Origin: Bacillota bacterium
Lineage (GTDB): Bacteria; Bacillota; Desulfitobacteriia; Desulfitobacteriales; JAJXUE01
Length of the DNA stretch: 46,461 bases
NCBI GenBank assembly: GCA_021811155.1
Contig: JAJZPO010000015.1
Location: forward strand, 1 to 46,461
Direction of reading: 5' to 3'
Of this stretch, positions 3,729 through 37,995 are shown in pieces. Both the position numbers and the translations under genes were made by a program. Every line of letters begins with the position of its first letter. The first letter of the stretch is position 1. Below the pieces are notes generated by a model. It searched no databases and was not told the DNA's origin. It saw only the letters and a program-made list of their open reading frames with translations.

Positions 3729-5497
3729 TGTTTTTCTTCCTCTCCCATCTCCGAATTATTTTGTTTGTTGTTCTTCGTGCTAAAAAACGCTTGCCTCTGG
3801 TGATAATAGCCAATAGCAAAGCGTCCCTGTTCATGTAAGTCAAGGTGGGCAGGAAAATCACTCAGATTTCCCATGATTTCACCCAACAGCCGCTCGAATT
3901 CAATTACCCTGCCTTTATGCTCGAGCTTAGCTAAATGATGGTTTTTCAGACGGAGTAAATTCGCATAGACAGTAACCGGCGTGGCACAGGCTGCTCCATA
4001 AAAACGCTCCCGAATCGTGGCATTTATCCCCGGGTTCGCCTCTTCCTGAATCTTTTCCAAAGTGGCAAACAGCCTTCCCAATTGGTAGCCGACAGACGGT
4101 TGATTTACATCCAACTCCATGTTAACCTCCTTGCAATTTGGATCCGGGTAAAAACGGTGGTAACGGTTCAAGTAGGCTTTGATGAGCGCAGCCCGAATCG
4201 GCTTAACTCTGTTTTCCGTGTCACTTCGAATCCGCCGTAGCACAGCTTGGAGAAGTGTGGCAGGGTACGGTGTTCCATCAATAATTGAGCGCATAAAATC
4301 TCCGGCCAAATTTGGTGGGATGTTTTCACTCTTGTCTTGGGTGGCTAGGTTCACCAAGATGCGCCAAATTGAATAATACTGTAGCTCTTTCGGAGGTTTG
4401 ACGATGGCGAAGTCATCAAAGTACTGTCTGATCCGGGATGCAAATTCTGAAATAGTTCCCACTTGCCAGAAGCGGATGGCAATCCGGGCGGCATTAGGGG
4501 CAAGCCCTAAGATATAAAACCTGTCACTCCCATCATCAGTCAGATAGGTTCCACTGTGTACAGATTCAAACAAGGCCTTTACTTTGTGGGTTCCGGCATC
4601 AGGATTATCCTTTTCCGGCTCTTTGAAGAACAATGAGAAATCGGATTCAAAAGTTGATTGCTTTTCTGACCAGAAAACAGTAGATGCATCCCCGATATGG
4701 ATACACTGGCGGGGCGAATCAAGCAACTTATTTAAGGCCTTGCCGTACTGAGATGCTGCAACCTTACTGACAGGGGCGTTAATACTTTGCGTTTTACCGT
4801 AGGAGTTAAAGGCATCTTTGTTAAAGCTGACAATGCACGCACCTGCGGACTGAGCTCCCCATACTCCCTTTGTTACAGGATGTGTAACCTGAATCGGGAC
4901 ATTGTTGCCTCCTGTAACCAGACAGGTCCCAAACACAGTCTCCGCACCCTCCTCGTGACTGCCTAGTGCATTGTCTACAACTGGGGAATTGAAGACCACT
5001 CTGTACCCGGTCTGCGGAACTGAGAAACTGATTTTCGCATTGCCTTCCTGAAGCAACTCACCAAATTCGGAATGATTTAGAGCCGGATTGAAATGGAGCC
5101 GGTCTTTGAGGCCTCTAGTGAGAAATTGTCTTACCGCAGAAACACCGACGTCGCTTGTTTCGCCAATCCATTTGTCAATTGCTTCTATCATGCTTTGCAG
5201 TCGTAAGTTCCCCTTATCACCCAACCCAAAAACAAATCCTGCATTGTCCCAAAGCAAATTGGCGTCCTTACCGCTCATTGAATGTTTTAGTGCCTGATTC
5301 CCAATGTTAGGCACATCCATTTGGCGGGAGACTCTCTTTTTCCCGTTCATTTCACGCAAATCTGAAATGCCCATTATGTCTCCATTGGGATCAAGCTCTA
5401 ACAGAAAATCGATTCCTCCCCTTATCCAGCCATCTTTGGCAATCAGACCTTCTACAGCCTTCCGGTCATAATACTCTTTCAGTGCCTGAAGTATCAT
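3725..5497 (-). CDS. cas8c: Cas8c large subunit of type I-C Cascade (Csd1)
   Basis: Cas8c recognises the PAM and opens target DNA. In I-C systems its 3' end also encodes an internally started Cas11-like small subunit. The 590-aa product starts [14 protein letters not shown], typical of Csd1, and contains the family blocks [22 protein letters not shown] and [13 protein letters not shown] (sperm-whale-like FNxxAFxSYG). The C-terminal ~150 residues are helical and could serve as Cas11. I could not identify an internal start with certainty. It overlaps cas5 by 4 bp upstream and cas7 by 4 bp downstream. Confidence 0.93.
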
Positions 5498-6228
5498 CCT
5501 CTCACCTCCACCTCCCTTCTGTCCGTATTTACCACCCCTTTGTCGATTTGTGCCCGGAAAAACAACGGAGACGGATCGCTTTCATCTCGCCCAAAATCCA
5601 TATCATACAACATAAAGCCCAAGTGTCTTGTCTCATCGATTAATTCAACCGGTCCCTCTTCAGGATTTACTAATCTGAAATCACAGGAAAACTCCCGGCA
5701 TCCGAGATAAGGCCTATGGAAACACTGGCCCTTTTTCGCCCGTCTCGCAAACATCGCCGCATATTTTGCCTCTGTTTCGTCCATCCGGACAGTTTCCCTC
5801 TGCTCCAGTTCGTCTGCCCAATACTCAGGCATGATGGAGCGGTTTGTCTTGCGCTGCTCCGGCGGGATGAAGTCGAAATAGCCATGAATGCGATACCTGA
5901 CGTCCTTCAAGAAAAGTCCGGCGCGCTGCTGTCGCTCATCTTCAATAAAGATGCCCATTGGAGCGCCCAATACACCCGCCATTTGTTTGGCCGTCGGTGT
6001 GGACACTACCTTGCCAACCTCATTGCGGCGTACGGAAATCCACTTGATTGGATTGACAACCTCAATTCTGGTTACATTCCACTTAATAGCCGGCTTCCAC
6101 AAAATGGCCTCGAAAATCGCTCTGGCCGCAGAAGGTGTCATCACATCATAGCTCACCCGTTCAACTTTCATCTCCGGCCTGGTAAAGCAGGCGTAGTCGC
6201 CCCACACTTCCAAACACCAGTTGTGCAT
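5494..6228 (-). CDS. cas5c: Cas5 of type I-C, pre-crRNA processing nuclease (Cas5d/Cas5c)
   Basis: In type I-C systems Cas5 replaces Cas6: it cleaves the repeat and stays on the crRNA 5' handle. The 244-aa protein has the family start LEVWGDYACFTRPEMKVERV followed by YDVMTPSAARAIFEAILWKP and NPIKWISVRRNEVG. No cas6 is present in the locus, consistent with this role. Its ATG is 9 nt from a strong AAAGGAGG that lies just past the cas3 stop (17-bp gap). Its 3' end overlaps cas8c by 4 bp. Confidence 0.95.
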   Translation of the reverse strand: MHNWCLEVWGDYACFTRPEMKVERVSYDVMTPSAARAIFEAILWKPAIKWNVTRIEVVNPIKWISVRRNEVGKVVSTPTAKQMAGVLGAPMGIFIEDERQQRAGLFLKDVRYRIHGYFDFIPPEQRKTNRSIMPEYWADELEQRETVRMDETEAKYAAMFARRAKKGQCFHRPYLGCREFSCDFRLVNPEEGPVELIDETRHLGFMLYDMDFGRDESDPSPLFFRAQIDKGVVNTDRREVEVRG

Positions 6229-6245
6229 CGCTACTCACCTCCTTT

Positions 6246-8489
6246 CTAAAATACAAATCCCTCAGGATTAAAAGGGGTTTCCTCTACTAATAACCCCGTA
6301 TCCCCGGAATAATCGAGATTGGTTGTCAGAGCATAGATTTTTGGCTGGACTTCTTCGACTGAGCCACGCTGCAGCAATTGACTAAAGTCATAATTATAGA
6401 CATTGACCGTATACCTTTGAAGTTGCCGCATTAACCTACGCTCTGGACCCCTGGACTTGAGCACATCTATTAGTTCCTCTCCTTTGCCGTATCGGACCAG
6501 AATCGTTTTCTGCTGGGCATCTTCGATAAGATGAAATCTGCTGGCGGCTGTCCGAAAATAGATTCCCAAGTCCTGTCGGTCAGGTTTTAACAGGGGCAGA
6601 ATTTCCTTTGTGTCCAAGGAATTTGCTTTCCAATACAACTCGGCAAAGTATTCCTCAAACAAATCGTTACTCAAGGGATCCTCTCTGTTGCGAGAAATAA
6701 TGCCACGGGAGGTGTCGGCTGCTTTGCGCAATAACCCAGGCGGCGCTTGTTTCGGCGGAACAAAGACAACCACTCTGCCCGGGTGAGGTAATTTTCCCTC
6801 CCTATTGCAGCGGCCGGCAGCCTGGGCAATGGAATCCAAGCCGGCAAGCGCCCTGTATACTACCGGAAAATCCAGGTCCACTCCCGCCTCTACAAGTTGA
6901 GTACTTATGACTCTGACCGGTTCACCGTCTTTCAATTTCTCTTTTATCTTCTTGATGACCACACTACGGTGCTGTCCGCACATCAGAGCGGAGAGGTGAA
7001 ATGTTCCTTGTGGCATCAAACTGTGCAATTCACGGCAGCTCTTTCTGTCTGAGACAACACACAAAACCTGCTCGTAAGCGGCTAACTCCTTGGCGATTTC
7101 TTCCCAGCCTGTAGCCTCATGCAGATCAGCCGGAAGATGAACCTGATATCTCCTCAAAGCCTCATAGAGCGATGTTACATCTTCTCTGCCGCCGATAATT
7201 TCTTTAATGTCTTTTAGCCCGGGAAACATTTGGCCGTCAACCATCCGTTCACCAATCGCCGGTTGTGTCGCCGTCGACAACACAAAACTAACGTGATAGT
7301 GGGCGACCAGCAGCCGGATTGTTTCCAGAATCGGGGCCAGATAATCAACCGGGACTAACTGGGCTTCATCCAAAATAATCACGGAATTTGCGATGTTGTG
7401 CAGTTTCCGGCAGCGACTGGATTTTGCGGCAAAAAGTGATTCGAAAAACTGTACAGAAGTAGTCACAATCACCGGAGCGTCCCAGTTCTCTGCAGCCAAA
7501 CGCGATTTCGGTGTGCTATCGTCCTCCTCCAGAGTGGAATGATGCTCAACGACTTGGTCCTCGCCAACGGCAGAACGCAATACATCCGCGTTTTGCTCAA
7601 TAATGCTTGTATAGGGAATCACGTAAATAATCCTGTCCAGGTTGTGCTTGACAGCGTGTTTCAGGGCAAAGGCAAGACTCGACAACGTCTTGCCCCCGCC
7701 TGTCGGTACCGAGAGAGAAAATATGCCTTGAGCTTCCTCAGCCATTTGCACACATTTGGCTCGGATGTCCCTTCTAATTTTATTTACCCTGGTGTCTTCC
7801 GCCTGTTCATCCATGCGAACGGCAAATGCGTTGAACCGGTCCAGCAACTCGGGCATAAAACAATACCCGGCCCGGATACCGGCCTTTTCCGTATCCATGT
7901 AATATTCTGTGTCGAGAAAATCGGCATCAACGAGGCTTGAGTACAACATCCTCATCCATAACGCCACGTCCAGACCTTCTTCAAAGCGCCAAGGCGGCAT
8001 GGTAGGCCTTGCTGCCCGTATTTGCTCTATGATAATTTGATCAATGTCGCCCACATCTTTTACCTGGCTCTGCTGAAACTGGAGTGAAGCTTGTCCCGCT
8101 CCCTCTGCGCTTGACCAATCCGGCAGACCGGCATGATGTCCCGCTATACAGTAAGCCAGTAACCTGCCAACACCCGTCCCAAACAAGCTCTCAACCAATT
8201 TGGCCCCATGAATGGCATGGGGTATCTTGCCAGTTTTGCTTTCTAAATGCGCTTCTTCATCAAACCCGCTTTTTGCCTGAAGGTACTGTTGCCATAATAA
8301 TCTTCCCTTGCCGGCATCGTGTGCCAACCCGGCTGCCTTTCCCCATTCCCCCGACTGAAACTTGGCAGCATTGGTCTCAGCCAGGCTTGCCGTTCTCTCT
8401 AAGTGATTCAACAGTGGCTGAGGAGCATCCCAAGAACCGTCAACGTTCTTGCGCACATGAGCGATTAATTCACTGCTCATTTTCTCCAC
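6246..8489 (-). CDS. cas3: Cas3 nuclease-helicase (HD + DExH), first gene of the cas operon
   Basis: Cas3 unwinds and degrades DNA bound by Cascade. The N-terminal HD nuclease is visible as NHLERT (His29), AHDAGKGRLLW (His57-Asp58) and IAGHHAGLPDW. The helicase follows with Walker A SVPTGGGKTLSSLA, DEAQ box IILDEAQLVP, STATQP, and motif VI QAAGRCNREG. All catalytic residues appear intact in 747 aa, normal for I-C. I keep the GTG at 8489 because AAAGGAGG sits 7 nt upstream; an ATG three codons in is the alternative. It leads a minus-strand run through cas2 with gaps of 17 bp or less. No convincing promoter was found in 8490-8740. Confidence 0.96.
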   Translation of the reverse strand: MEKMSSELIAHVRKNVDGSWDAPQPLLNHLERTASLAETNAAKFQSGEWGKAAGLAHDAGKGRLLWQQYLQAKSGFDEEAHLESKTGKIPHAIHGAKLVESLFGTGVGRLLAYCIAGHHAGLPDWSSAEGAGQASLQFQQSQVKDVGDIDQIIIEQIRAARPTMPPWRFEEGLDVALWMRMLYSSLVDADFLDTEYYMDTEKAGIRAGYCFMPELLDRFNAFAVRMDEQAEDTRVNKIRRDIRAKCVQMAEEAQGIFSLSVPTGGGKTLSSLAFALKHAVKHNLDRIIYVIPYTSIIEQNADVLRSAVGEDQVVEHHSTLEEDDSTPKSRLAAENWDAPVIVTTSVQFFESLFAAKSSRCRKLHNIANSVIILDEAQLVPVDYLAPILETIRLLVAHYHVSFVLSTATQPAIGERMVDGQMFPGLKDIKEIIGGREDVTSLYEALRRYQVHLPADLHEATGWEEIAKELAAYEQVLCVVSDRKSCRELHSLMPQGTFHLSALMCGQHRSVVIKKIKEKLKDGEPVRVISTQLVEAGVDLDFPVVYRALAGLDSIAQAAGRCNREGKLPHPGRVVVFVPPKQAPPGLLRKAADTSRGIISRNREDPLSNDLFEEYFAELYWKANSLDTKEILPLLKPDRQDLGIYFRTAASRFHLIEDAQQKTILVRYGKGEELIDVLKSRGPERRLMRQLQRYTVNVYNYDFSQLLQRGSVEEVQPKIYALTTNLDYSGDTGLLVEETPFNPEGFVF

Positions 8490-26549: not shown

Positions 26550-27731
26550 CTATTGTTTCAACTCCATTTTCCTGCCGAGCTTGCCTGTATTTAATACCTT
26601 GGCCGTCACCTCGACTTCGATATCAGCCGCGCGGAAGCTTTCCCGCCAATGGGGGGCAATTTCCCGCCATACTGCCGGCTCGGAACGATGCAGTTTTTCG
26701 CTGCAGCCCAAAAAATCGGAATTGTATTCCTTGGCTTGACGGATGGTTCGGAGGGCCAGCTCCCGGATGCTCCCGGCGCAGTCAGCTTCAACCTCAGGCA
26801 TCGTTTCCGCCGTTAAGTCAAGTCCGTTACTGTCGATAATCGCTCCTGCGGTTTCGATCCGGATGAGATAAGCAAGCTTGTCGCCGGTCAGTTGGGGTTC
26901 AATCCTGCTTTTGGTCTTGTGAATGAAGTAGGTGAAACACCGGCCGCCTTTTGTGACCGGCAGGCGGATTTCCACCCCACTCAGCTTTTGTGTAAGAAAC
27001 AGATAACCCTGCGTTTCCTGTCTGTTCAGCCAGCCCACTAACCTGGCTCCGCGAAAGACGCCCAAGCCTTCGACAACCTGGGTTTTCGAGACTGAGGCCT
27101 CGCTCTTCTCCTGGGGCCGGATGACCTTGATCTCCGGCAGCACGGCATCCCTGTCCGGGCTTAACAGCCATTGCGCAAACTCACTGAGGTTGACGCTGCC
27201 GGACAGGCCGGCGAGCTTGGCTGTATCCGCGGCCATACTCTTGCTTTCTTTCGAATTCGTTTTGGCCATTTCGGGCTCTGTCTGCAGGATGGAAAAAGCG
27301 TCTCCCCTGGCTACCAGCAGATTGACTCGGAAACGCATCTCGACAAACCTGGTGAGCACCTCCAGGACATCCTCCGTTTTTTCCCGGGCCGCTTTTTCCC
27401 CGACGATGGCCGTACTGGCGTGGGCGTAAAACGGCTGACGCGGCAGACGTTTGGCGACGTCCCCTACCGCATCCTCAATGGTAATCCCTTTCCCTTGCAT
27501 GAGAACCTCCTGCGAACTGCCGCTCGGTGCCCCGCCTCCCCCCGTTGTAATGGTAGACTGGATCATGCGCGCGGACACTTGCCATTGGTCTATCCCGTCT
27601 TCGCTGATCCTGTCGATACCGACGGAGGTAATAATGGCCAAATCCTGAACTTCCCTGCCGCTCCAGCAACCCGTCGCAAATAGTATTAGGCAGATGCTCA
27701 GGCAGGACTCTAACGCTCGTCTTCGCTTCAT
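26550..27731 (-). CDS. gerC: Germinant receptor lipoprotein subunit GerC, set 1
   Basis: The C subunit of a spore germinant receptor, a lipoprotein on the outer face of the spore inner membrane. A signal peptide with lipobox LFATGC places the lipidated Cys near residue 22, followed by WSGREVQDLAIITSVGIDR, the GerC hallmark. Further family blocks are VEGLGVFRGARLVGWLN, and the C-terminal SDFLGCSEKLHR and WREIAPHWRESFRAADIEVEV. 393 aa, normal. Its ATG overlaps the gerB stop by 4 bp. Confidence 0.93.
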   Translation of the reverse strand: MKRRRALESCLSICLILFATGCWSGREVQDLAIITSVGIDRISEDGIDQWQVSARMIQSTITTGGGGAPSGSSQEVLMQGKGITIEDAVGDVAKRLPRQPFYAHASTAIVGEKAAREKTEDVLEVLTRFVEMRFRVNLLVARGDAFSILQTEPEMAKTNSKESKSMAADTAKLAGLSGSVNLSEFAQWLLSPDRDAVLPEIKVIRPQEKSEASVSKTQVVEGLGVFRGARLVGWLNRQETQGYLFLTQKLSGVEIRLPVTKGGRCFTYFIHKTKSRIEPQLTGDKLAYLIRIETAGAIIDSNGLDLTAETMPEVEADCAGSIRELALRTIRQAKEYNSDFLGCSEKLHRSEPAVWREIAPHWRESFRAADIEVEVTAKVLNTGKLGRKMELKQ

Positions 27732-28828
27732 GGCGGTCCCTCCCTTCGTTTTCCCCTGATCAGGGCAACAAGCAGCAGGAGCAAAGGCAGGACCAGTTCA
27801 AATATGAGGGCATAAGGCGGCCAATATTGGCCGAGGATCTCGCCCAGTTCCCCCATACTAATCAATGGGTAACTGGCCGCCAGGATTTGCACGAGAGCGA
27901 GCGGATAAAGCGCAGGCCGGTAAGCTGTCAACCCCAGGACCTGAGCCGTTGCCAGAGCCAAGACATAGCTGACCAAGGCTACTTTAATGGTCATGCCCGT
28001 AATCCATAACACGGCAACCACACTTTCCACCCGCTGCAGATAATTGCCGTATTCGATGTATTTGGCTACATTCCAAAAAGGAAACTGGAGATAACCGGTG
28101 AATTCAGGCCCGAAGATCCCCAGGGTAATCAGAGTATCCACGCTCAGAAATCCGGCCACAGCCAGGATGGCCAGATATCCCCGGCTTTTTGCCTCCCGGG
28201 GTTTGTTAACCGCGGGCAGCAGCATGGCCAGCACGATCACTTCCCCGTACCAGGAAGCAGGGGTTACCGAACTCCGGATGATGGGCAGAACCCCCCCTTC
28301 CAGGAGCGGCAGCAGCTTGCCCGGTTCCATGGCGGGGATAGCTAAGACGAAGATGAACAAGGTACCCGCCACAAAGAAGGGCAGGACAAACTGGGTCATG
28401 CGGGCGATAACCTCTATTCCCTTCGCTGCAGCGTAGCCGCCCACCAGTACGATGGCAATGTTCAGGATATAGTGCGGCGTTTTTGACAGCACGGTGAGCG
28501 TTAAGAATTGGGAGAACTCCCGGATCACCAAAACGTTGAAGACCAGAAAAAAGAGGATATAGGCTCCTCCGACCAGCTTGCCTGCTGCTTTGCCGAGCAG
28601 AACGACGCTATATTGGGCTAAGGTGTGCTGCGGAAAACGCTGCCCTAACTTCCAGGCCGTCCAGAGCGTGGCAAAACCCGTGAGAACAGGCAAAAACAAC
28701 GGGACGAGCCAGGCGGACTGTTTGGCCTTGGCTGCCGTAATCCCCGGCACGAACAGGATGACGGTAGCCATGACCAGGATAAATAAAAGCATTGCCAGTT
28801 GAGTGCCGGAGATTTTCTCCTTGTCTAT
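27728..28828 (-). CDS. gerB: Germinant receptor membrane subunit GerB, set 1, probable ATA start
   Basis: GerB is the amino-acid-permease-like subunit of the germinant receptor, with about ten membrane segments. The first ATG (28792) would remove the conserved N-terminus: the 12 codons before it read DKEKISGTQLA, matching the KISxxQ start of GerB proteins. No ATG, GTG or TTG exists there. The codon 9 nt after GGGAGG is ATA at 28828, overlapping the gerA stop (ATAG). That start gives 366 aa, the usual length. If ATG 28792 is used the protein is 354 aa and lacks the block. Confidence 0.9.
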   Translation of the reverse strand: MDKEKISGTQLAMLLFILVMATVILFVPGITAAKAKQSAWLVPLFLPVLTGFATLWTAWKLGQRFPQHTLAQYSVVLLGKAAGKLVGGAYILFFLVFNVLVIREFSQFLTLTVLSKTPHYILNIAIVLVGGYAAAKGIEVIARMTQFVLPFFVAGTLFIFVLAIPAMEPGKLLPLLEGGVLPIIRSSVTPASWYGEVIVLAMLLPAVNKPREAKSRGYLAILAVAGFLSVDTLITLGIFGPEFTGYLQFPFWNVAKYIEYGNYLQRVESVVAVLWITGMTIKVALVSYVLALATAQVLGLTAYRPALYPLALVQILAASYPLISMGELGEILGQYWPPYALIFELVLPLLLLLVALIRGKRREGPP

Positions 28829-30435
28829 GGCCTTTTCCCTCCCTTGTCCGGTTGAGCCGGACCCTGCCGGGGGTCTTGTCTGATCGGTTCCTTAGCGCCG
28901 AAAAAGCGCGGCCGGGTTTTCATCAGCGGCCAGGGCACCCGGATGAAGCTGTCTTTCAAATCGCGCAGACTCAACGGGGCAAACGGCGATAAATAGGGAA
29001 TGCCAAACGAGCGCAAGCTGCAAAGGTGAGCCAGAATAACCATTAAGCCCAATATGATCCCTACACTTCCCAGAACTGCAGCCAGGATGATCATGGCGAA
29101 ACGTAAGATCCGGATGCTGTTCTCCGCCGCATAGCTGGGCAGAGTGAAAGAGGCGATTGCCGTCAGGGCGACGACGATAACCGTGACGGGGCTGATGAAC
29201 CCGGCGCTCACCGCGGACTGGCCGATCACCAGGCCGCCTACGGTGCTCACAGCCTGGCCAATTGTCTGGGGCAAACGGGCCCCGGCTTCCTGCAATAATT
29301 CAAAGAGAAATTCCATCAGGATGATTTCCACAAAAATAGGCAGGGGCAGGTCTTGCCGGGTATTGGAAAGGGTTTCGATCAGCTGGGTAGGCAGGAAGTC
29401 CTGGTGAAAGGAAAGGACGGCTACGGTCAGGGCCGGCAGCAGCAAAGCGATATTCAGAGCGATGAAACGCAGTGCCCTGATAAAGGTGGCAAAAGTGGCG
29501 GCGTTCGAATAATCCTCGCTTGCTTGCATGAGGGGCAGGAAGGTACAGGGAACAAGCAGGACCGAGGGGGTGTTGTCGACGACAAGCGCGATTCTCCCTT
29601 CCAAAAGCGAGCCTGCCGTACGATCCGGACGTTCTGTGTACTGGATGAGGGGAAAGAGCGAGAAGGATTGATCTGCGATAAACTCTTCGATATAGCCGCT
29701 GGCCAGGACACTGTCTGTGTTGATCCGCCGCAGGCGTTGTTTGACTTCCGCCACGATCTTGTCATTGGCGATTCCCTGAATGTAACAGACGGCAATCTTC
29801 GTTCTTGTCAGGGCTCCTGCCTCAGCGGTCTCTATTTTCAAGCGGCTGGAGCGGATCCGGCGCCGGATGAGGCTGAGGTTCGTGCTCAGATTCTCCACAA
29901 ATCCGTCGCGTGGTCCCCGCACGTTGGGCTCAGTGGTGGGTTCATCAACAGCCCTCTGTTTCATGCCCTGAACGCCAGCGATGATGGCGGCGCTCGAACC
30001 GTCGATCACCAAAGCGAGCTGACCTTCTAAGACAAAATGGACCAACTGCAGAATATCTGTGCTGGTTTGGGCTTTCCCAACGTTCAACAGCCGTTCCAGG
30101 ATGACTTGTTGGAGATTGGCCTGGGTCAGCTGCAAGCCGGCAGGCAAGGCGGTAATTTCCTGCATGATGGGCTTGAGAATTGATTCGTTGATCTGGGTCG
30201 GGTCACATAAACTGTCGGAAAAAACAATAAAAGCCCTGGGCGAGTTCCCGGCATTCAGCCGCAACTCCCGGAACGTAATGTCGGCACAGAGGTCGAAGAC
30301 CTGCCGCAAAGCCAGGAGGTTATCCTCGATATGCGAGGACAGGGGCCGTTCTTCCTTAGGCTGCCCCTGGGAATTCTGGCTCGAATCTTTTTTTTCTCTG
30401 AGGGTTAAGATTTTATTGAACATTTTATTGAACAT
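28825..30435 (-). CDS. gerA: Germinant receptor subunit GerA, set 1
   Basis: The A subunit of a spore germinant receptor. It has a soluble N-terminal part (~1-290) with RGPRDGFVENLSTNLSLIRRRI and YIQGIANDKIVAEVKQRLR, then YTERPDRTAGSLLEGRIAL. The C-terminal part has four to five membrane segments with FVEIILMEFLFELLQEAGARLP, GQAVSTVGGLVIGQSAVSAG and SLRSFGIPYLSPFAP. The 536-aa length is usual. The ATG at 30435 follows GGAG; a second in-frame ATG four codons on repeats the same 12 bases. Operon order A-B-C is intact. Promoter of the forespore type is expected but not clear. Confidence 0.94.
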   Translation of the reverse strand: MFNKMFNKILTLREKKDSSQNSQGQPKEERPLSSHIEDNLLALRQVFDLCADITFRELRLNAGNSPRAFIVFSDSLCDPTQINESILKPIMQEITALPAGLQLTQANLQQVILERLLNVGKAQTSTDILQLVHFVLEGQLALVIDGSSAAIIAGVQGMKQRAVDEPTTEPNVRGPRDGFVENLSTNLSLIRRRIRSSRLKIETAEAGALTRTKIAVCYIQGIANDKIVAEVKQRLRRINTDSVLASGYIEEFIADQSFSLFPLIQYTERPDRTAGSLLEGRIALVVDNTPSVLLVPCTFLPLMQASEDYSNAATFATFIRALRFIALNIALLLPALTVAVLSFHQDFLPTQLIETLSNTRQDLPLPIFVEIILMEFLFELLQEAGARLPQTIGQAVSTVGGLVIGQSAVSAGFISPVTVIVVALTAIASFTLPSYAAENSIRILRFAMIILAAVLGSVGIILGLMVILAHLCSLRSFGIPYLSPFAPLSLRDLKDSFIRVPWPLMKTRPRFFGAKEPIRQDPRQGPAQPDKGGKRP

Positions 30436-30608
30436 TGTTCTCCGTTACCCGTCTGTACGCGTTTGGTGTGCCAATTTACTACTTTATAATTCCACATTTG
30501 CGCATTTATACTCAGGCCGGAGGCATTTGTTAGTCCGTTTTCAACGGGTTCCGCCGAATTCCAAACAGGAATATACTACAGTGGAATTACTGCTGGGGGT
30601 GGGTTGGA

Positions 30609-30734
30609 TTGCATCCGCAACTACAAGCCCAAATTATGTTATTTATGTATTGGCTTTTTTGGCTCGTGCTGTCGTTTGTATTATCCATTTCACTAGGCTG
30701 CGGCATTCTCTGGCTGGAATCCGGGGCTTATTAG
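30609..30734 (+). CDS. Small membrane protein, 41 aa (cluster ORF 1)
   Basis: Starts at TTG after GGGGGTG (7 nt). The product opens LHPQLQAQIMLFMYW and is mostly one membrane helix (LFWLVLSFVLSISLG), ending GILWLESGAY. No family recognised. First of eight close-packed plus-strand ORFs that diverge from gerABC set 1; 10 bp separate it from the next. Confidence 0.5.
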   Translation: MHPQLQAQIMLFMYWLFWLVLSFVLSISLGCGILWLESGAY

Positions 30735-30744
30735 GTGTACGCCT

Positions 30745-30897
30745 ATGTATAAGGCAAAATATTATGGAGAATTTCTTCCCTTTAACTTTTTATGGACATT
30801 GCTGATAATCATCCTCTTGCGTATCTTCATTCACGTTTTTGGGCTTGAGGTGTTTAGTCCGAGGGGGGAGGTACCGCAGGATGAGTTCATCCGATAG
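30745..30897 (+). CDS. Small membrane protein, 50 aa (cluster ORF 2)
   Basis: ATG 30745 has AGGTG 7 nt upstream. The product starts MYKAKYYGEFLPFNFLW, has one membrane helix (TLLIIILLRIFIHVFGL) and a short polar tail with several acidic residues (SPRGEVPQDEF). It overlaps the next ORF by 17 bp, suggesting coupled translation. Unknown family. Confidence 0.55.
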   Translation: MYKAKYYGEFLPFNFLWTLLIIILLRIFIHVFGLEVFSPRGEVPQDEFIR

Positions 30898-31303
30898 GAG
30901 AACACTATCATTACAAACTGCAGACCTTGTCCCAGCCATTGACCCTGAGCCTGAAGGATTTGATTCCGTTCAGTTACTTTCCTCAGGTGTACAAATTTAC
31001 TTCACCCTCAGCAAAGATTTTCAAACCCAGGTGGGCATTTTTTTTAATACCATGGGAAAAATCGAGTTTTGGCTTCAGCAGAGTGCGATCCCTAATAATG
31101 TACTGGTTCAAATCAAGGTTATCGAGTTGCACGTCCCAACCGCCTTAGGATTCATGTTCTTTTTTCTTGGCATAGCCACTCTCCAGCTAAAGACCTTGAT
31201 CCTGGACAACCGGTCCGAAAAACTGGAGACCATCCAGGAAATGAAAAACTGGCTGGACATGGTGATTAGCAGCAAGGAAAGGAAAGCAATAAAGAGCAAG
31301 TAG
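30881..31303 (+). CDS. Membrane protein with one copy of the novel repeat module (140 aa, cluster ORF 3)
   Basis: ATG 30881 lies 9 nt after GGGGGAGG; the open frame reaches 30839 but without an SD. Residues 26-125 match each of two modules of the 282-aa protein at 31881. The block VGIFFNTMGKIEFWLQQ (51-67), then IPNN (70-73) and IKVIELHVPTALG (78-90) aligns to LGILLMDFRRLEFSIKQ, EPNE and IRIFDICAPFPL. A membrane helix follows (GFMFFFLGIATLQL), and a charged helix ends the protein (SEKLETIQEMKNWL, then KERKAIKSK). No known family is recognised. Confidence 0.75.
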   Translation: MSSSDRRTLSLQTADLVPAIDPEPEGFDSVQLLSSGVQIYFTLSKDFQTQVGIFFNTMGKIEFWLQQSAIPNNVLVQIKVIELHVPTALGFMFFFLGIATLQLKTLILDNRSEKLETIQEMKNWLDMVISSKERKAIKSK

Positions 31304-31314
31304 GAAGTGAGCCA

Positions 31315-31437
31315 ATGTTTCTCGGCTTCGGCATCTCAGTCCCATTGTCTTTTTCAGCCACATGTCTGGCATTTACTGCATTTGCCGTCACTTTATTTCT
31401 AATCATCGGCGTTCAGCAAGTGCTCCGGGCCAGATGA
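31315..31437 (+). CDS. Small membrane protein, 40 aa (cluster ORF 4)
   Basis: ATG 31315 follows AGGAAGTGA. The product starts MFLGFGISVPLSFSAT and continues as one membrane helix (CLAFTAFAVTLFLIIG) ending VQQVLRAR. The SVP-then-helix layout resembles the end of the repeat module in ORFs 3 and 7, though too short to be sure. 11 bp after ORF 3. Confidence 0.5.
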   Translation: MFLGFGISVPLSFSATCLAFTAFAVTLFLIIGVQQVLRAR

Positions 31438-31517
31438 CCCTTTGGTTTACTGTGTGCCTCCCCTGGCAACACACGGGTCCAAAAGACATATACTGGAAAT
31501 AAGATGGAGGGGGTATT

Positions 31518-31649
31518 ATGGTTACTTGGGAATCTGGCTCTTTGTGCCTGATCCAAAGCTACTGGATTATCTGGCTGGTGGGCTCAGCCGTTGTGGCCAT
31601 AGTGTTAGGCGCGGTCATTATCAGAAATTATCAAGCGGTTAAGTGCTGA
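31518..31649 (+). CDS. Small membrane protein, 43 aa (cluster ORF 5)
   Basis: GGAGG stands 7 nt before ATG 31518, the strongest SD in the cluster. Product MVTWESGSLCLIQSYW then one helix (IIWLVGSAVVAIVLGAVII) and RNYQAVKC at the end. An overlapping 66-codon frame at 31442 has no SD and no hydrophobic core and is not preferred. Confidence 0.55.
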   Translation: MVTWESGSLCLIQSYWIIWLVGSAVVAIVLGAVIIRNYQAVKC

Positions 31650-31652
31650 AAA

Positions 31653-31865
31653 ATGGAACCATGCAAGAACAGCTCCCCGCGGCTTTGCAGGGAAAGAATC
31701 ATCTCCGCCAACCCGAACAGCAAATTCTGGGGGATCTGGCTGCCTGTACCCACCATCATCGCCATCATCGTTACTCTCTTTTTTAACTGGCTAATCTTAC
31801 ACACCGTCGGATATACCGAAGATCCGATTGAGAAGGCGGGAAAACACATCATCGAGGAATTTTAG
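31653..31865 (+). CDS. Small membrane protein, 70 aa (cluster ORF 6)
   Basis: Starts 3 bp after ORF 5. A basic N-terminus of about 24 residues is followed by FWGIWLPVPTIIAIIVTLFF, one strong membrane helix, then NWLILHTVGY and an acidic/basic tail (TEDPIEKAGKHIIEEF). The SD is weak, as expected for coupled translation. Unknown family. Confidence 0.6.
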   Translation: MEPCKNSSPRLCRERIISANPNSKFWGIWLPVPTIIAIIVTLFFNWLILHTVGYTEDPIEKAGKHIIEEF

Positions 31866-31880
31866 AGGGATGGTGTTGAG

Positions 31881-32729
31881 ATGCGGCGCGTTGACCTCAG
31901 CAATAAATTGCTGCAGAGCGTTCATCAATACCTGGCGCCTCTCCTTGCGCGCTGCCGCACCCCGGAACAACGCCGGCACGTATACGACAAATACTATCCG
32001 CTCATCCTCAAGCATGTTCGCAAATGGTATGCCGGAAAACTAAACCCCTTCAATTTGACTCCTCGGACGATCATGATCTGGCTCCTCATCCGGCCCAATA
32101 ATGCCATTGGAGTCAGTCTGATCGGCCTCCAGAAAATTGCTATCTATTGGCGGCAGCAGCTGGAACCGAATGAAACCGTCTTTTTACTGATCAAGCTGAT
32201 TGACTTGCGTGTGCCCTTCCCCTTAATGCTGCTCATTGCTTTTGGCAGCATTGGACTGATCGTCACCGATGGCGCCAACCGCCTGGTCAAAGCCGCGCAA
32301 ACGCAGTTTGAAGAGGTAATTAATAACATCCAGGCGAAGCTGGATGGGTTATCGGATACGCCGGCGGATCTCCTACAGTCGATCGCAAATATGGCAGCGT
32401 CAGAAGAACGTCAACAAGCCGTCAAGCTCTTTGATCCGTTCAATTTGACCACGCGCATGTCCGTCTATCTCCCGATCTATAACTACCAGACCACCTTGGG
32501 AATACTCTTGATGGATTTCAGGCGTTTAGAATTCAGCATCAAACAAGCTTTGGAACCGAATGAGACGTTCCTTAGCATCATTCGTATTTTCGATATCTGC
32601 GCCCCTTTTCCGCTCCCGATCATGGTGATTTTATTGTCGGTTGGGCTATTCTTTGTGGGCAAAATTCAAGATTTAATCCAGGCAGCGCGTGAAGATATCA
32701 TAAACGACGTAAAGCGGAGCATGCCTTGA
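31881..32729 (+). CDS. Membrane protein with two tandem copies of the novel module (282 aa, cluster ORF 7)
   Basis: A basic N-terminus (1-53) precedes two modules exactly 130 residues apart: PFNLT at 56 and 186, EPNET at 95 and 225, V/A-PFPL at 111 and 241. Each has an amphipathic stretch, the EPNET turn, an IK/R-hydrophobic-D block and a membrane helix (LMLLIAFGSIGLIV; PIMVILLSVGLFFVG), then a charged helix (KAAQTQFEEVINNI; QAAREDIINDVK). The same module occurs once in ORF 3. I know of no family with this pattern. GAGGG lies about 11 nt before the ATG. AT-richer than the flanking ger genes. Confidence 0.82.
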   Translation: MRRVDLSNKLLQSVHQYLAPLLARCRTPEQRRHVYDKYYPLILKHVRKWYAGKLNPFNLTPRTIMIWLLIRPNNAIGVSLIGLQKIAIYWRQQLEPNETVFLLIKLIDLRVPFPLMLLIAFGSIGLIVTDGANRLVKAAQTQFEEVINNIQAKLDGLSDTPADLLQSIANMAASEERQQAVKLFDPFNLTTRMSVYLPIYNYQTTLGILLMDFRRLEFSIKQALEPNETFLSIIRIFDICAPFPLPIMVILLSVGLFFVGKIQDLIQAAREDIINDVKRSMP

Positions 32730-32757
32730 TGCTGCATCGGTCTTAGGAGTGGTTTAC

Positions 32758-32919
32758 ATGTCACTCAGCTATCTTTGGGCACACGGGACAGTCTTATGCG
32801 TACAACCTTTCCCGTATTTTGCGCCGCTCATATCGTTGGGCGTCTTCCTCTTAATCGTGTTCATCATCACCGCGCTGAAACTGGTATTGGAGAACCCAAT
32901 CCAGCGCCTATTGTGGTAA
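32758..32919 (+). CDS. Small membrane protein, 53 aa (cluster ORF 8)
   Basis: ATG 32758 has AGGAG 8 nt upstream. Product MSLSYLWAHGTVLCVQPFPY then one membrane helix (APLISLGVFLLIVFIITAL) and KLVLENPIQRLLW. C-x-x-PFP before a helix recalls the ICAPFPL block of ORF 7. 28 bp after ORF 7 and 72 bp before the DUF421 gene. Confidence 0.65.
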   Translation: MSLSYLWAHGTVLCVQPFPYFAPLISLGVFLLIVFIITALKLVLENPIQRLLW

Positions 32920-32991: not shown

Positions 32992-33684
32992 ATGTTAATC
33001 ATAGTAGTCCGAACGTTGATTCTCTTTGCCCTGGTGGTCCTGGTCATGCGCCTGATGGGCAAACGCCAGGTGGGACAGCTCCAGCCCTATGAACTGGTCG
33101 TGGTCATCCTGATTTCCGAGTTGGCGGCGGTGCCCATGGAGACCACCGCCATCCCGCTTTTCAGCGGCATCGTGCCGATCCTCATCCTGCTCATGGCCAG
33201 TGTGACCCTGTCCTACATATCCTTAAAGAGCGAGAAGGCCCGGGCTGTAATTTGCGGCAAACCGACCATAGTCATTGAGCGCGGAAAAATCCTCTACCCC
33301 GAGCTGGAAAAACTGCGCTACAACATGAGCGATTTGCTGGAACAGCTGCGGGTCAAAAACGTGCCCAATATAGCTGACGTGGAATACGCCATTTTGGAGA
33401 CCAACGGTGAGTTGAGCGTGATTCCCAAGTCCCAGAAACGTCCGGTTATCCCGGAAGACCTGCAGGTAGCCACAAAATACGAGGGCCTGCCCCTGATCCT
33501 GGTGGTGGACGGAAAAGTCAGCCGGCAGAACATGGACAAGGCCAAAGTTGACATGAACTGGCTGCAAAACGAGCTCAAACGGTTTCAAATCGATAAGGTG
33601 GAAGAGGTTCTCCTGGCAAGCCTGGACTCGACCGGCAGCCTGTTTGTCCAGGAAAAAACTCCGGCTGCCCAAAATTTGCATTAG
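32992..33684 (+). CDS. DUF421 (YetF-like) membrane protein
   Basis: A 230-aa protein with three N-terminal membrane helices and a cytosolic DUF421 domain. Signatures: VVRTLILFALVVLVMRLMGK, RQVGQLQPYELVVVILISEL, then ARAVICGKPTIVIERGKILY and MSDLLEQLRVKNVPNIADVE. Family members occur in spore-resistance loci of Bacillus (2Duf) and next to germination genes in Clostridia. AAAGGAG is 7 nt before ATG 32992, so the nine upstream codons of the open frame are excluded. Followed 12 bp later by the DUF4363 gene. Confidence 0.92.
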   Translation: MLIIVVRTLILFALVVLVMRLMGKRQVGQLQPYELVVVILISELAAVPMETTAIPLFSGIVPILILLMASVTLSYISLKSEKARAVICGKPTIVIERGKILYPELEKLRYNMSDLLEQLRVKNVPNIADVEYAILETNGELSVIPKSQKRPVIPEDLQVATKYEGLPLILVVDGKVSRQNMDKAKVDMNWLQNELKRFQIDKVEEVLLASLDSTGSLFVQEKTPAAQNLH

Positions 33685-33696: not shown

Positions 33697-34077
33697 ATGC
33701 GCACCATTACGGTAGTAGCCATCGGTTTTCTCCTGATTCTGGCGTTTGGCATCGGCGCCTACGCCTATGTCAACTCATCGGCCAGCCAAATGGCGGGACA
33801 ATTGAAAACTGCGGAAGATGCAATCCGCGCCCAAAAATGGGAGCTGGCGCAGGGCCAGCTGGCATCGGTCCAACAAAACTGGGACAGGGCAAAAAGCCGG
33901 TGGGCGGTATTGCTTGACCATGAGGAGATAGATAACATTGACATCAGCATCAAGCGCCTGGCAGAGTATGTGAAATCAAAGGGCAGCGCCCTGGCCCTGG
34001 GGGAGGTTTCAGCCCTGCGGCTCCTGGTGGAACACATCTCCGATAAGGAAGCCCCCAACATCAAAAACATCCTATAG
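33697..34077 (+). CDS. DUF4363 protein
   Basis: A 126-aa protein with an N-terminal membrane anchor (ITVVAIGFLLILAFGIGAYAYV) and an outer helical domain. WELAQGQLASVQQNWDRAKSRWAVLLDHEEID and LAEYVKSKG, ALALGEVSALRLLVEHI match DUF4363, commonly paired with DUF421 in spore formers. AGGTGACAGT lies just before the ATG. Function unknown. Confidence 0.88.
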   Translation: MRTITVVAIGFLLILAFGIGAYAYVNSSASQMAGQLKTAEDAIRAQKWELAQGQLASVQQNWDRAKSRWAVLLDHEEIDNIDISIKRLAEYVKSKGSALALGEVSALRLLVEHISDKEAPNIKNIL

Positions 34078-34092: not shown

Positions 34093-35655
34093 GTGGTTAA
34101 GGCGCTGTTCCAAAAACTTTTTCCTCGCAATAATTCAGGCAGAAAGCAGGTTTTGGGTTCGAAGCAGAAGAGTGATCGCCCTATCCCTGCTTCTATTGAA
34201 CAAGCCGCAAACGAAGTTCAATCAGTCATGGGCAACAGCGCAGATCTCATGGTCCACCGGTTTCAGGCCTTTGCCGGGAAGAGCGAGTGCGCTGTAGTCT
34301 ATCTTAAATCCTTTACAGATATTGAAGAACTGAACAAGTCCGTACTGGCTCCCCTGCAGCGCTTTACAAGTCTTCCCAAGGATATGGAAAGCCTGGGGAA
34401 GATTTTGCCTCAGGCCGGGACCCGGGTAATTGCATCTATACAAGCGTTGAGCAAAGCCATAGCCTGGGGCGACACGGTCCTGCTGGTTTCCGGCTTCAAG
34501 TCCGGACTGGAAATCCCGCTCAAAAAATACCAGCAGCGGCCAGTAGAGGAACCCGACAACGAAAAGATAGTGCGGGGACCGCGGGACGGATTTGTCGAGT
34601 CGATCTGGTCCAATGCCGGACTGCTGAGGCAGAGGATAAAGAACCCTGATTTCAGGCTGGAAGTCCTTACCCTGGGTACCAGGACTTCCGTCGAAGTTGG
34701 AATAGTATATGTGGAAGGGATTGCCAACCGGCAAATCGTCTCGGAAGTCAGGCAAAGGCTTGAGCGGATCGAGGTGGACAGGCTGCTGTCCTCCGGCTAT
34801 GTCGGTGAATTCACTACAGATTCCCCCTGGTCGCCCTTTCCTACCAGCCAGTTCACCGAACGCCCGGACCATGTCACCGCCGCCCTGCTGGACGGACGGA
34901 TAGGCATACTCATCGACGGCACTCCCATCGTTACCATCGTGCCGGTGGTATTCTGGGACTTTCTGAAGTCGCCCGACGACTACATCGAAAGCCCTTACTT
35001 CGCGACCTTGGTCCGCCTTATCCGGCTTTTGGCCCACCTGGTAACCCTTCTGCTCCCAGGCGCCTATGTGGCTGTGACCACTTTCCACCTGGAGATGCTG
35101 CCCCAGACCCTGGCGATGATTATCGCCGGCGCCCGCACGCGAACCCCGTTTCCCGTCGCCATCGAGATGCTGACGATGGAGTTGACCGTGGAAATCCTGC
35201 GGGAAGCCGGCCTGCGCATGCCAGGCTCGTTTGGCCAGACCATGAGCATCGTGGGGGCCCTGGTCATCGGGGAAGCGTCGGTCACCGCCGGCTTGATCGA
35301 ACCGATTATCGTGGTGATTGTTGCCTTTACCACCTTAGCTTCCTTTATCGTGCCGGGCTATAACGCCGCCATCGCCATCCGACTGCTGCGCTTTCCGCTC
35401 GTGTTGCTGAGCGCTGCCATGGGCATTTTCGGCCTGGCCCTGGGGGCCATGTTCTACCTGTACCACCTGGTCAGCCTGCGGTCCTTTGGGGTGCCATATT
35501 TTGCTCCCGTTGCCCCTCTTTTTCTCAAAGACATGGGGGACACGTTCATCCGTCTGCCGTGGTACTTGCAGTCCCGCCGCCCAACTTATTACCGGGCGGA
35601 AGATGAAATCAGAGAAGGCCGGGACAACAGGCCCGGGCCGGAAAAGGAGTCCTGA
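34093..35655 (+). CDS. gerA: Germinant receptor subunit GerA, set 2
   Basis: GerA family, 520 aa. N-terminal soluble region with VRGPRDGFVESIWSNAGLLRQ and YVEGIANRQIVSEVRQRLE, TERPDHVTAALLDGRIGI; then membrane part with AIEMLTMELTVEILREAGLR, GQTMSIVGALVIGEASVTAG and SLRSFGVPYFAPVAP. It is clearly diverged from set 1, so the two receptors likely sense different germinants. The GTG at 34093 is poorly spaced from AGAAGG; the true start is uncertain by a few codons. 15 bp after DUF4363. Confidence 0.93.
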   Translation: MVKALFQKLFPRNNSGRKQVLGSKQKSDRPIPASIEQAANEVQSVMGNSADLMVHRFQAFAGKSECAVVYLKSFTDIEELNKSVLAPLQRFTSLPKDMESLGKILPQAGTRVIASIQALSKAIAWGDTVLLVSGFKSGLEIPLKKYQQRPVEEPDNEKIVRGPRDGFVESIWSNAGLLRQRIKNPDFRLEVLTLGTRTSVEVGIVYVEGIANRQIVSEVRQRLERIEVDRLLSSGYVGEFTTDSPWSPFPTSQFTERPDHVTAALLDGRIGILIDGTPIVTIVPVVFWDFLKSPDDYIESPYFATLVRLIRLLAHLVTLLLPGAYVAVTTFHLEMLPQTLAMIIAGARTRTPFPVAIEMLTMELTVEILREAGLRMPGSFGQTMSIVGALVIGEASVTAGLIEPIIVVIVAFTTLASFIVPGYNAAIAIRLLRFPLVLLSAAMGIFGLALGAMFYLYHLVSLRSFGVPYFAPVAPLFLKDMGDTFIRLPWYLQSRRPTYYRAEDEIREGRDNRPGPEKES

Positions 35656-35660
35656 CCGGA

Positions 35661-36749
35661 TTGAACGGAGAACGGATTTCCTCACGCCAGTTGACCTGGC
35701 TGCTCATTATCATCAATATTTCCACTTCCACCGCGCTAGTGCCGGGAATTGTCATTTTTTATGCCAGGCAGAGCGCCTGGCTGGCAATCCTGCTGGCTGC
35801 CGCAGCAGCTGCGGCAGGGGTTGTCTTAAACCTGACTTTGGCAGGACAGTTTCCCGGGCAGACCGTCGCCCAGTATGCACAAGGTTTGCTGGGAACCTGG
35901 CTGGGCAGACTTGCAGGGTTTTTCTACAGCCTGACCTGCCTGTATCTAGTTGCTGTCTGCATCAGAACTATTACACAGGTGATCAAGCTTTCGATCATGC
36001 CGGAAACCCCATTATGGCCGTTTGTTACCGGTTTTGTCCTACTTACAGTATACAGCGCCTGGTTGGGGCTTGAACCGCTGGCCAGGGCTGGTGACATAAT
36101 GTTCCCCTTTGCCCTGCTGGTGTTAACATCTCTCTTTCTGCTGGCCCTGCCCGAAGGGAAATTGTACCGCGCCCTGCCGGTGCTGCAGTTCAATCCTGCC
36201 GGAATTGTCAAAGGTGCGTTTCCCTCTTTTGCCTGCCTGGGAGAATCCTTTGTTATCCTCCTTTTGGCTCCCGCGCTCAACAAACCGGCAGAGCTGAAAT
36301 CAGCCTCCCTGAAGGGGTCACTCTTGTCAGGCCTGATTCTCGTCGTTCTGACCCAGACCCTCCTGTTTGTCCAGGGAACCTACCGGACTTCAGCCTATCT
36401 TTTTCCCATCCTCAGGACTGCCGGGGAACTTAATGTCCTGGATGTTTTTGAACGATTCGCGCCTTTCGTTCTCACCGCCTGGTTCACCGTTAACAGCGTC
36501 AAAATAGGCGTGCTGGCGTACTGCTTTGCCCTCTCTGCCAGCCAAACCATAGGCCTAAAGAGCTGCCGGCCGGCCCTGCTTGCCGCCTTGGTCGCTATTC
36601 CCCTCCTCTCCCTTGCTCCCAGAAGCCTGGCCGAAAGCCTGACTGTTTGGGTTGACCTGATAGCTTTTAAAATCCTTATTCCTACTGCTTTTTTGTTCCT
36701 GCCCGCACTGCTGCTGCTGATAGCGAAGGTGAAAAAACATCATGGTTAA
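35661..36749 (+). CDS. gerB: Germinant receptor membrane subunit GerB, set 2
   Basis: GerB family transporter-like subunit, 362 aa with about ten membrane segments. It begins MNGERISSRQLTWLLIIINI, with the conserved ISxxQ block intact, and has LLGTWLGRLAGFFYSLTCLYL, then FPSFACLGESFVILLLAPALNKP. TTG 35661 follows AAGGAG by 11 nt and lies 5 bp after gerA. Its stop overlaps gerC by 8 bp. Confidence 0.93.
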   Translation: MNGERISSRQLTWLLIIINISTSTALVPGIVIFYARQSAWLAILLAAAAAAAGVVLNLTLAGQFPGQTVAQYAQGLLGTWLGRLAGFFYSLTCLYLVAVCIRTITQVIKLSIMPETPLWPFVTGFVLLTVYSAWLGLEPLARAGDIMFPFALLVLTSLFLLALPEGKLYRALPVLQFNPAGIVKGAFPSFACLGESFVILLLAPALNKPAELKSASLKGSLLSGLILVVLTQTLLFVQGTYRTSAYLFPILRTAGELNVLDVFERFAPFVLTAWFTVNSVKIGVLAYCFALSASQTIGLKSCRPALLAALVAIPLLSLAPRSLAESLTVWVDLIAFKILIPTAFLFLPALLLLIAKVKKHHG

Positions 36750-37995
36750 ACGTATTTTGGTCTTTAGTTTGCTGCTGTTTCAGCTGATCTTAACCGGCGG
36801 GTGCTGGAATCGTCTCGAACCTGAGCACTATGCCTGGCTCAGCTGGCTTGGCCTGGACAAGGCAGAAGGAGGGAAGGTTAAGATAATGACCGTAGTCTCT
36901 CCCCCGCTCAGCCCGGTCCCAACCGGAGCAGCCCCACCGGAAGATTTAATGCTAACTTCCTCTGCCACGGGTGATACAGTATTTGACGCCGTGCGCAATA
37001 TCAATGCCCACCTGCCCAAGCGCCTGTTCTGGCCCTACCTGCAGGCTGTGGTCCTGAGCGAAGACATAGCCCGTTCAGGCGTGGAGCAGCATCTGGACGC
37101 CCTGTTCAGAAACGTGAGAGTCCGGAAAAACGCCTGGGTGTTTATTACCAGGGGGCCGGTTGATTCGGTGTTCAAAATAGATCCCCAAATAGAAAGGAGC
37201 CCGGCAGCGTTAATCGATGCATTGGTCAAGGCTGAACAGGATTTCCTGGGGAAGAGCCGGGTGCTCAGGCTCAAGGAGTTCCAGCGCGAGCTGGCTAGCC
37301 CAGGTTTTGACCCCGTGGTCAGCGTCCTCGGGGTTTGGGACCCAAAAGAAGAAAAGGTCCTGCCCCCAGGGGCCAAGGTCCCCAAGAAGGCGGAGCTGGC
37401 GCTTGACGGCAGCGCTGTATTCCAGGGGGATAAATTGGTGGGATGGCTTTCCCCGGCAGAGTCCCAGGCCTACCTGCTGGGCAAAGGGGAAATGAAGACA
37501 GGACTCATCGCAGTACCCCATCCGGATAACCCTCAGAACCTGGCTGGAATTGAAATTATCAGGAGCAGCTCCAAGCTCAGGGCGGAAATAGCGGGCGGCA
37601 GGGCTGTGGCAAAGATCGAGGTCAAGATAAGCGCTAACCTGGGGGACCAGCGGTTTAACGCGCCGGGACGCGAGGCGGAAGACACCGACGAAGACCCGGA
37701 CTTCTACCTCAAGCTTGGGGAACAACTTGAGAGAAAAGTTAAGTCTGACCTGGAAAAACTGGCGGCGAAGTCACAAACCACCTTTGATGCGGACATATTT
37801 GGCATCGGCGACTACATCGCCAACCGCTACCCCAATGACTGGGAGCAAATCCAGTCCAACTGGCGGGATTACTACAAACAGGCGGCAATAGAGATAGAAG
37901 TCAAGGCCAACATAGCTGCCGCGAACATTATGCGTTCCCACCCACCGCGGACGGATAACCAAGAGCAGAGCGGGAGTGCCGCCGGAGAAGAGTAA
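36742..37995 (+). CDS. gerC: Germinant receptor lipoprotein subunit GerC, set 2
   Basis: GerC lipoprotein of 417 aa. Signal peptide with lipobox LILTGGC (Cys near residue 21) followed by WNRLEPEHYAWLSWLGLDKA. Later blocks: LDGSAVFQGDKLVGWLSPAE, IFGIGDYIANRYPNDWEQI and NWRDYYKQAAIEIEVKANI, typical of the GerC C-terminus. Last gene of the plus-strand run; a hairpin at 38115-38143 follows. Confidence 0.93.
   Translation: MVKRILVFSLLLFQLILTGGCWNRLEPEHYAWLSWLGLDKAEGGKVKIMTVVSPPLSPVPTGAAPPEDLMLTSSATGDTVFDAVRNINAHLPKRLFWPYLQAVVLSEDIARSGVEQHLDALFRNVRVRKNAWVFITRGPVDSVFKIDPQIERSPAALIDALVKAEQDFLGKSRVLRLKEFQRELASPGFDPVVSVLGVWDPKEEKVLPPGAKVPKKAELALDGSAVFQGDKLVGWLSPAESQAYLLGKGEMKTGLIAVPHPDNPQNLAGIEIIRSSSKLRAEIAGGRAVAKIEVKISANLGDQRFNAPGREAEDTDEDPDFYLKLGEQLERKVKSDLEKLAAKSQTTFDADIFGIGDYIANRYPNDWEQIQSNWRDYYKQAAIEIEVKANIAAANIMRSHPPRTDNQEQSGSAAGEE

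Follow-up and report, generated by a model that had tools for sequence, protein, structure and literature searches.

What is the function of a run of very small membrane protein genes located between two sets of germination receptor genes? This question is raised by a 46,461-bp stretch of DNA from a Bacillota bacterium (contig JAJZPO010000015.1 of assembly GCA_021811155.1; hereafter the window), in which eight open reading frames (ORFs), o1 to o8, lie on the plus strand and are flanked by two complete, diverged gerABC operons on opposite strands (26550-30435 and 34093-37995). An initial annotation, made from the sequence alone, interpreted the cluster as an undescribed multi-subunit spore membrane complex tied to germination or spore resistance and possibly acquired as a block. 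The analysis presented here indicates that the eight ORFs are two tandem paralogous cassettes of four genes each: type II (o1-o4), with a single-module protein C', and type I (o5-o8), with a double-module protein C. This organisation as one duplicated four-gene unit is the point that the first reading had missed.

Two paralogous four-gene cassettes

The coordinates and sizes of the eight ORFs (41, 50, 140, 40, 43, 70, 282 and 53 aa) were all confirmed (Table 1), and each encodes at least one strongly hydrophobic 19-residue stretch. A Shine-Dalgarno sequence is plausible for most of them, the TTG of o1 being the least certain start, and the cluster is AT-rich relative to its neighbours, with a GC content of 0.43-0.50 vs 0.54-0.57 in the ger and DUF421 genes. 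The paralogy of the two halves is evident from profile matches (all with Z=1000): the profile of the o5 family (A) matches o1 with an E value of 9.6e-7, the C profile matches o3 (E about 1e-6) and the D profile matches o4 (E 2.6e-7). The link between o2 (B') and o6 (B) falls short of significance (E 0.18), and we pair the two by position. In the opposite direction, profile A8, which describes the type II module and was built from o3 and 11 relatives, matches both modules of o7 in the window genome (E 3e-14 and 2e-10); two sequences of a third arrangement are included in this type II C' profile and may help to bridge the two types.

These matches, and the agreement between AlphaFold2 folds, establish that o3 holds a third copy of the module present twice in o7, where the repeat spacing is exactly 130 residues and P56/P186 and P96/P226 are invariant or nearly so in 16 homologues. 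The proposal that the tiny ORFs echo the C-terminal half of this module did not stand: profile-profile comparison gave a probability of 0.3% for D against C and 0.1% for B against D, and we therefore rejected the idea that they are module fragments. A faint likeness (12.6%) was obtained between the A and B profiles by the same procedure.

Clear type II counterparts of o2, o3 and o4 exist in divergent loci of other genomes. The B' proteins of eight other loci share 27-40% identity with the o2 product, and G8, F10 and P12 are invariant; for o4, the identity to the D' proteins of seven loci is 35-48%. Type II counterparts occur in about nine genomes, and it is on their conservation, seen in eight or nine loci, that we consider the type II ORFs to be real genes. 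The type II order rotates, being A'-B'-C'-D' in L113, L114 and L116 and B'-C'-D'-A' in L090, L091, L115 and L117.

Conservation and selection of the type I cassette

In a whole-genome search, relatives of o7 were found in 17 of 61 genomes, including that of the window. Regions of up to 17 kb around o7 relatives, amounting to 17 loci (one genome contributing two), were then surveyed with each ORF of the cluster. Counterparts of o6, o7 and o8 were present in all 17 loci and that of o5 was detected by BLAST in 16. The order o5-o6-o7-o8 on a single strand is maintained in 16 loci, while the remaining one (L036) shows a diverged C-A-B-D arrangement in which A was found by profile. No neighbouring gene was generally shared across the loci; only the cassette genes recur, and the unit is therefore a stand-alone A-B-C-D cassette. 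The tiny ORFs are thus conserved in other genomes, a point on which the initial annotation had made its proposal depend.

Sequence identity across the 17 loci ranges from 35 to 72% for o6, and from 35 to 74% for o8 in intact copies, B and D being usually more similar between genomes than C. Eight positions of o5 are invariant (Q13, Y15, W16, W19, L20, L30, G31 and N37). The ratios of nonsynonymous to synonymous substitution rates (dN/dS), computed in close pairs for the type I ORFs, were 0.11-0.26 for B, 0.15-0.32 for C, 0.02-0.12 for D and 0.12-0.6 for A, the latter value being inflated by the uncertain starts of A. At the sequence level, this indicates that purifying selection acts on the type I ORFs. 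Single members of the cassette can nevertheless decay, since the second cassette of genome G013 (L037, 11977-12168) has a frameshifted o8.

Fold, topology and family searches

In the AlphaFold2 model of o7 (pLDDT 77, pTM 0.59), each module is predicted to form a four-stranded antiparallel meander that continues immediately into a long helix, and an independent model of o3 (pLDDT 73.9, pTM 0.44) gave the same four-strand plus helix fold. Foldseek searches of the module models yielded no match at E <= 0.001 in the PDB and no significant match among viral models; the best shape matches of the o3 model include single beta-propeller blades (8iqf, 47 columns, 2.1 A), at a non-significant E of 0.65. 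In the o7 homologues, the segment preceding the first main membrane helix has a net positive charge and the loop between helices a net negative one; this asymmetry, repeated across homologues, suggests that the two modules of o7 lie on opposite faces of the membrane, with the N-terminal side positive and the loop side negative. Protein B also has a positive N-terminus and a negative C-terminus in nearly all homologues. Invariant residues lie within the beta modules and at the edge of the membrane, not as charges in the helices, and nothing resembling a catalytic set of residues was seen; both points make a structural or anchoring role more likely than that of an enzyme or transporter.

Scans of the cassette proteins against Pfam, NCBIfam, PHROGs and PADLOC produced nothing credible, with no match to PADLOC anti-phage defence models and no Pfam or NCBIfam match relating them to GerA, GerB or GerC. 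Sequence-profile searches of the PDB with C and D gave no match either. This agrees with the view that the module belongs to no known family, and the four-protein set appears to be undescribed as far as the libraries tried are concerned (AlphaFold DB and unannotated UniProt lay outside the search, and the literature search was brief).

A sigma-K-type promoter shared with dpaA

A motif, GGMATAWTATGGTA, is common upstream of most of the 29 cassettes analysed, usually 10-30 bp before the first gene (alignment score of 389, vs 229 or less in shuffles), and in many of them AC is found 16-17 bp upstream of MATA. In the same genomes, AC-N17-CATATAATG is present upstream of dpaA genes and missing from spoIVA genes; the window genome's own dpaA carries CTCATATACTG. 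The sigma-K layout, with AC at -35 and CATANNNTR at -10, 16-17 bp apart, is found in front of o5-o8 (31469-31495). The dpaA gene of Clostridioides difficile is driven by a sigma-K promoter, and such promoters have AC in place of the sigma-E ATA at -35 (PMC3789822); the Bacillus subtilis sigma-K consensus is described in PMC517825.

When a strict pattern was defined (AC-N16/17-MATANNNTG just upstream of the first gene), it was found in 16 of 29 cassettes, 24 of 26 dpaA records (among which some genomes are entered twice), none of 16 spoIVA genes and one of 151 control genes (Fisher P about 4e-14). Since the cassettes and dpaA had been inspected before the pattern was written, and related cassettes do not count as independent, this P value is optimistic and the contrast with the control genes is the fair measure. 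The exact promoter string occurs at chance level when scanned genome-wide, so that the argument rests on position and enrichment rather than on rarity. Scanning the regions in front of o1 and o5 for a sigma-E pattern gave nothing, and strict sigma-F and sigma-G scans upstream of the ger and DUF421 genes revealed no pattern. About half of the cassette copies have, on this evidence, a strict sigma-K-type site like that of dpaA, which would place their expression late in the mother cell and lends support to the link with sporulation put forward initially. As to the proposed unbroken run into the DUF421 gene, there is no convincing plus-strand terminator between o8 and this gene, but o5-o8 carry their own upstream sigma-K-like site, so that a single continuous run from o1 to the ger genes is no more than a possibility.

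Distribution and horizontal exchange

The C profile matches 22 of 74 genomes of one order and, among phylum samples comprising 399 genomes, its matches are confined to that order. No cassette homologues were found outside it, nor in the viral contigs, phages and plasmids searched. Named hosts, recovered by an alignment search of genome contigs with o6, include Desulfosporosinus lacus, D. acididurans, D. sp. FKB, D. fructosivorans, Gracilibacter and Peptococcaceae genomes; the single o7 sequence gave no match against those contigs. Judging from these hosts and their taxonomy, the order is probably Desulfitobacteriales. Given its patchy distribution, the function of the cassette must be dispensable.

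The o7 tree conflicts with that of SpoIVA at strongly supported nodes, the conflicting groups (all 100/100) joining D. fructosivorans C with Gracilibacter, f3 G050 with f2 G011, and the window with f2 G013. In addition, the two other genomes of the window's family are devoid of the cassette according to the C profile. Both observations fit horizontal exchange within the order, and the tree conflict is the evidence that now backs the suggested acquisition as a block. To judge from these sequence comparisons, the four genes travel together and the cassette moves horizontally within one order. At L118 (2120-4729 and 5409-5867), a cassette remnant of which D alone was found lies beside several integrase-like genes, as would be expected if a mobile element had disrupted or moved it.

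A putative late mother-cell membrane complex

From the observed linkage, conservation and promoter similarity, along with the moderately confident predicted fold of C, we infer a compartment, a complex and a role in the spore envelope. The reading that we favour, with some reserve, is that the eight ORFs are two paralogous cassettes of a late mother-cell membrane complex, probably located in the outer forespore membrane or at the base of the coat. At a late stage of sporulation, A-D would be made by the mother cell and would insert into its membranes, the outer forespore membrane included, and assemble into one complex, as their co-conservation suggests. Protein C, with one or two modules of meander plus transmembrane (TM) helix, would have a structural or anchoring role, its beta modules offering assembly or docking surfaces on one or both membrane faces, while A, B and D could be helical single-pass subunits that lock C into the bilayer. 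The conserved four-gene set behaves as a multi-component membrane system, in line with the multi-subunit idea of the initial annotation. Several facts weigh against this reading: the patchiness of the cassettes within the order, the lack of the strict promoter pattern in 13 of the 29 cassettes (among them window o1-o4, with a -10-like half only), the only moderate confidence of both AlphaFold2 models, the derivation of complex formation from co-conservation only, and that of topology from hydrophobicity and charge alone. A more ambitious version, possible although we find it doubtful, would be a new class of endospore envelope machine, exchanged horizontally: four small membrane proteins made by the mother cell and obligatorily linked, of which the scaffold protein displays inverted blade-like modules on either side of the outer forespore membrane and anchors or patterns the coat. 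Variants would be traded among lineages much as surface structures are among other bacteria.

A germination membrane module working with the GerABC receptors would agree with the location of the cluster between two ger operons. The genomes contain two to nine gerA genes each, and outside the window ger genes are found within 3 kb of three of 30 cassettes, compared with 0.38 expected (P about 0.007, for a distance chosen post hoc and with contig ends ignored). In L088 (G061) the neighbour is a divergent gerA whose product is only about 31% identical to the GerA proteins of the window, in L118 (G059) gerB lies about 300 bp downstream of the cassette, and in L117 (G071) gerA is 2.1 kb downstream with a transposase-like gene in between. 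However, the other 27 cassettes have no ger gene within that distance. GerABC receptors are forespore products in B. subtilis, so that a sigma-K, mother-cell type of promoter points to a different compartment. The proposed tie to the germination operon was therefore not sustained: adjacency is a local, occasional arrangement, a germination link in a minority of genomes is possible, above chance expectation as it is, and a germination module as the general explanation seems quite unlikely.

Alternatively, the complex could be a pore of the outer forespore membrane, located like SpoVV, that transports dipicolinate, a metal or another small molecule. A promoter matching that of dpaA would agree with this, and several single-pass subunits plus a larger scaffold could form a pore. 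We consider it unlikely, given that dipicolinate loading is general among spore formers and the cassette is patchy, that the invariant positions are not helix charges, and that no family or fold match to any transporter was obtained. The tiny single-pass proteins and their presumed late mother-cell timing could also evoke a lysis or holin-like set, and an NlpC/P60-like endopeptidase gene (identified by eye) is located about 1.1 kb past the cassette in L022 and L032 and just upstream in L033, all from Desulfosporosinus. Such a function is highly unlikely: the proteins have no holin, PHROG, phage-family or other viral match and are absent from the phage genomes searched, C has predicted folded beta domains and conserved motifs, and a holin does not require four-way co-conservation. 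Finally, the weak start of o1 and the frameshifted o8 in the relative copy L037 might be taken as signs of chance hydrophobic ORFs or a decayed remnant, which is almost inconceivable for the cluster as a whole; dN/dS values well below 1 and the conservation of order, motifs and promoter in many genomes refute it for o5-o8 and make it very unlikely for o2-o4.

If the late mother-cell complex is confirmed, it would offer a direct way of studying the attachment of late mother-cell membranes to the spore layers, and would imply that such spore parts are exchanged between lineages. Knowledge of the membrane proteins in the outer forespore membrane, and of how they connect to the coat, is comparatively limited and comes mostly from Bacillus. 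Here, a compact conserved set of four proteins, small enough to be expressed as a whole, occurs in spore formers, sulfate-reducing Desulfosporosinus among them; annotation pipelines will probably miss its tiny ORFs.

Features of the window and neighbouring genes

The features of the cluster are collected in Table 1. The DUF421 and DUF4363 genes that follow it are assigned to the ger operon and not to the cassette, as they are absent from every other cassette locus scanned; the DUF421 gene is more likely to start at 32992, preceded by a good Shine-Dalgarno sequence, than at 32965. In PMC10126465, the DUF421-containing protein 2Duf is presented as a likely spore inner-membrane protein. A DUF2935 gene (PF11155), possibly another sporulation-linked gene, adjoins the cassette in two separate loci (L029 and L036), and a potassium-channel-like membrane protein, recognised by eye, is encoded with a cassette-like sigma-K-type promoter at L037 (5359-6084), on the contig shared with the second cassette of that genome. 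An orphan membrane protein near the cassette in two loci was considered as a fifth partner and discarded, because it occurs widely in the order (43 of 74 genomes), for the most part without linkage to the cassette. This protein, with a GLTIFAPVSSVPGSASFFFLQPLLTG motif and no Pfam match, is encoded at L027 (9849-10589), L026 (386-964) and G000:C1:33163-33789, the window genome being included; by eye its layout resembles the C module, a likeness for which homology is not demonstrated. Elsewhere in the window, a run of ORFs on the minus strand (1087-8489) resembles a type I-C CRISPR-cas operon (Cas1, Cas4, Cas7, Cas8c, Cas5 and Cas3-like, by eye).

Table 1. Features of the eight-ORF cluster and of the two genes downstream (positions in the window)
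Feature	Position	Strand	Description
-10-like element GGAATATACTA, 5' of o1	30568..30578	+	Half of a sigma-K-type promoter, without AC at the expected distance
o1, type II A'	30609..30734	+	41 aa, one TM; uncertain TTG start; occupies the A' position seen in L088, L113, L114, L116
o2, type II B'	30745..30897	+	50 aa, one TM; Y-Y/F-G-x-F-x-P motif
o3, type II C'	30881..31303	+	140 aa; one predicted beta-meander module and TM helix
o3 module copy	30986..31294	+	Residues 36-138: predicted strands 36-84, helix 87-138; AlphaFold2 model m9270aaf3c4e5
o4, type II D'	31315..31437	+	40 aa, one TM
Sigma-K-type promoter site AC-N16-CATATACTG, directly 5' of o5	31469..31495	+	
o5, type I A	31518..31649	+	43 aa, one TM
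o6, type I B	31653..31865	+	70 aa; K-F/Y-W-G-I-W-L-P-V-P-T precedes TM
o7, type I C	31881..32729	+	282 aa; two tandem modules
o7 module 1	32043..32333	+	Residues 55-151; predicted strands 63-70, 74-81, 85-93, 100-110, helix 113-155
o7 module 2	32433..32714	+	Residues 185-278; predicted strands 191-200, 204-210, 215-223, 230-240, helix 245-280
o8, type I D	32758..32919	+	53 aa; Q-P-F-x-Y-F precedes TM
DUF421/YetF-family protein (PF04239)	32992..33684	+	Neighbour outside the cassette; E 1.1e-40
DUF4363 protein (PF14276)	33697..34077	+	Neighbour outside the cassette; E 1e-31

Comparison with known systems

The cassette can be compared with several known elements. Each module of C resembles a WD40-type beta-propeller blade in shape only, as a four-stranded antiparallel meander, but C has just one or two such blades, joined to a membrane helix, and the match is not significant. 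GerABC (PF03323 and partners) is likewise a spore membrane complex and is adjacent in the window, although it has no sequence relation to the cassette and is adjacent in a small minority of genomes. The spoVA2mob operon, with its DUF421/DUF1657 protein 2Duf, offers a parallel as an exchangeable operon with spore membrane proteins, and a DUF421 gene also adjoins the cassette in the window; however, as described in PMC10126465, it shares no gene with the cassette itself, and 2Duf is assigned to the spore inner membrane whereas the cassette promoter is of the mother-cell type. As to the spore-envelope operons of the sigma-K regulon (cot, dpa), the cassette differs from them in that its four products are all small integral membrane proteins, with no homology to coat or dipicolinate proteins found, but it is like them in its promoter layout, AC-N16/17-CATANNNTR, and in the late mother-cell timing that this layout suggests.

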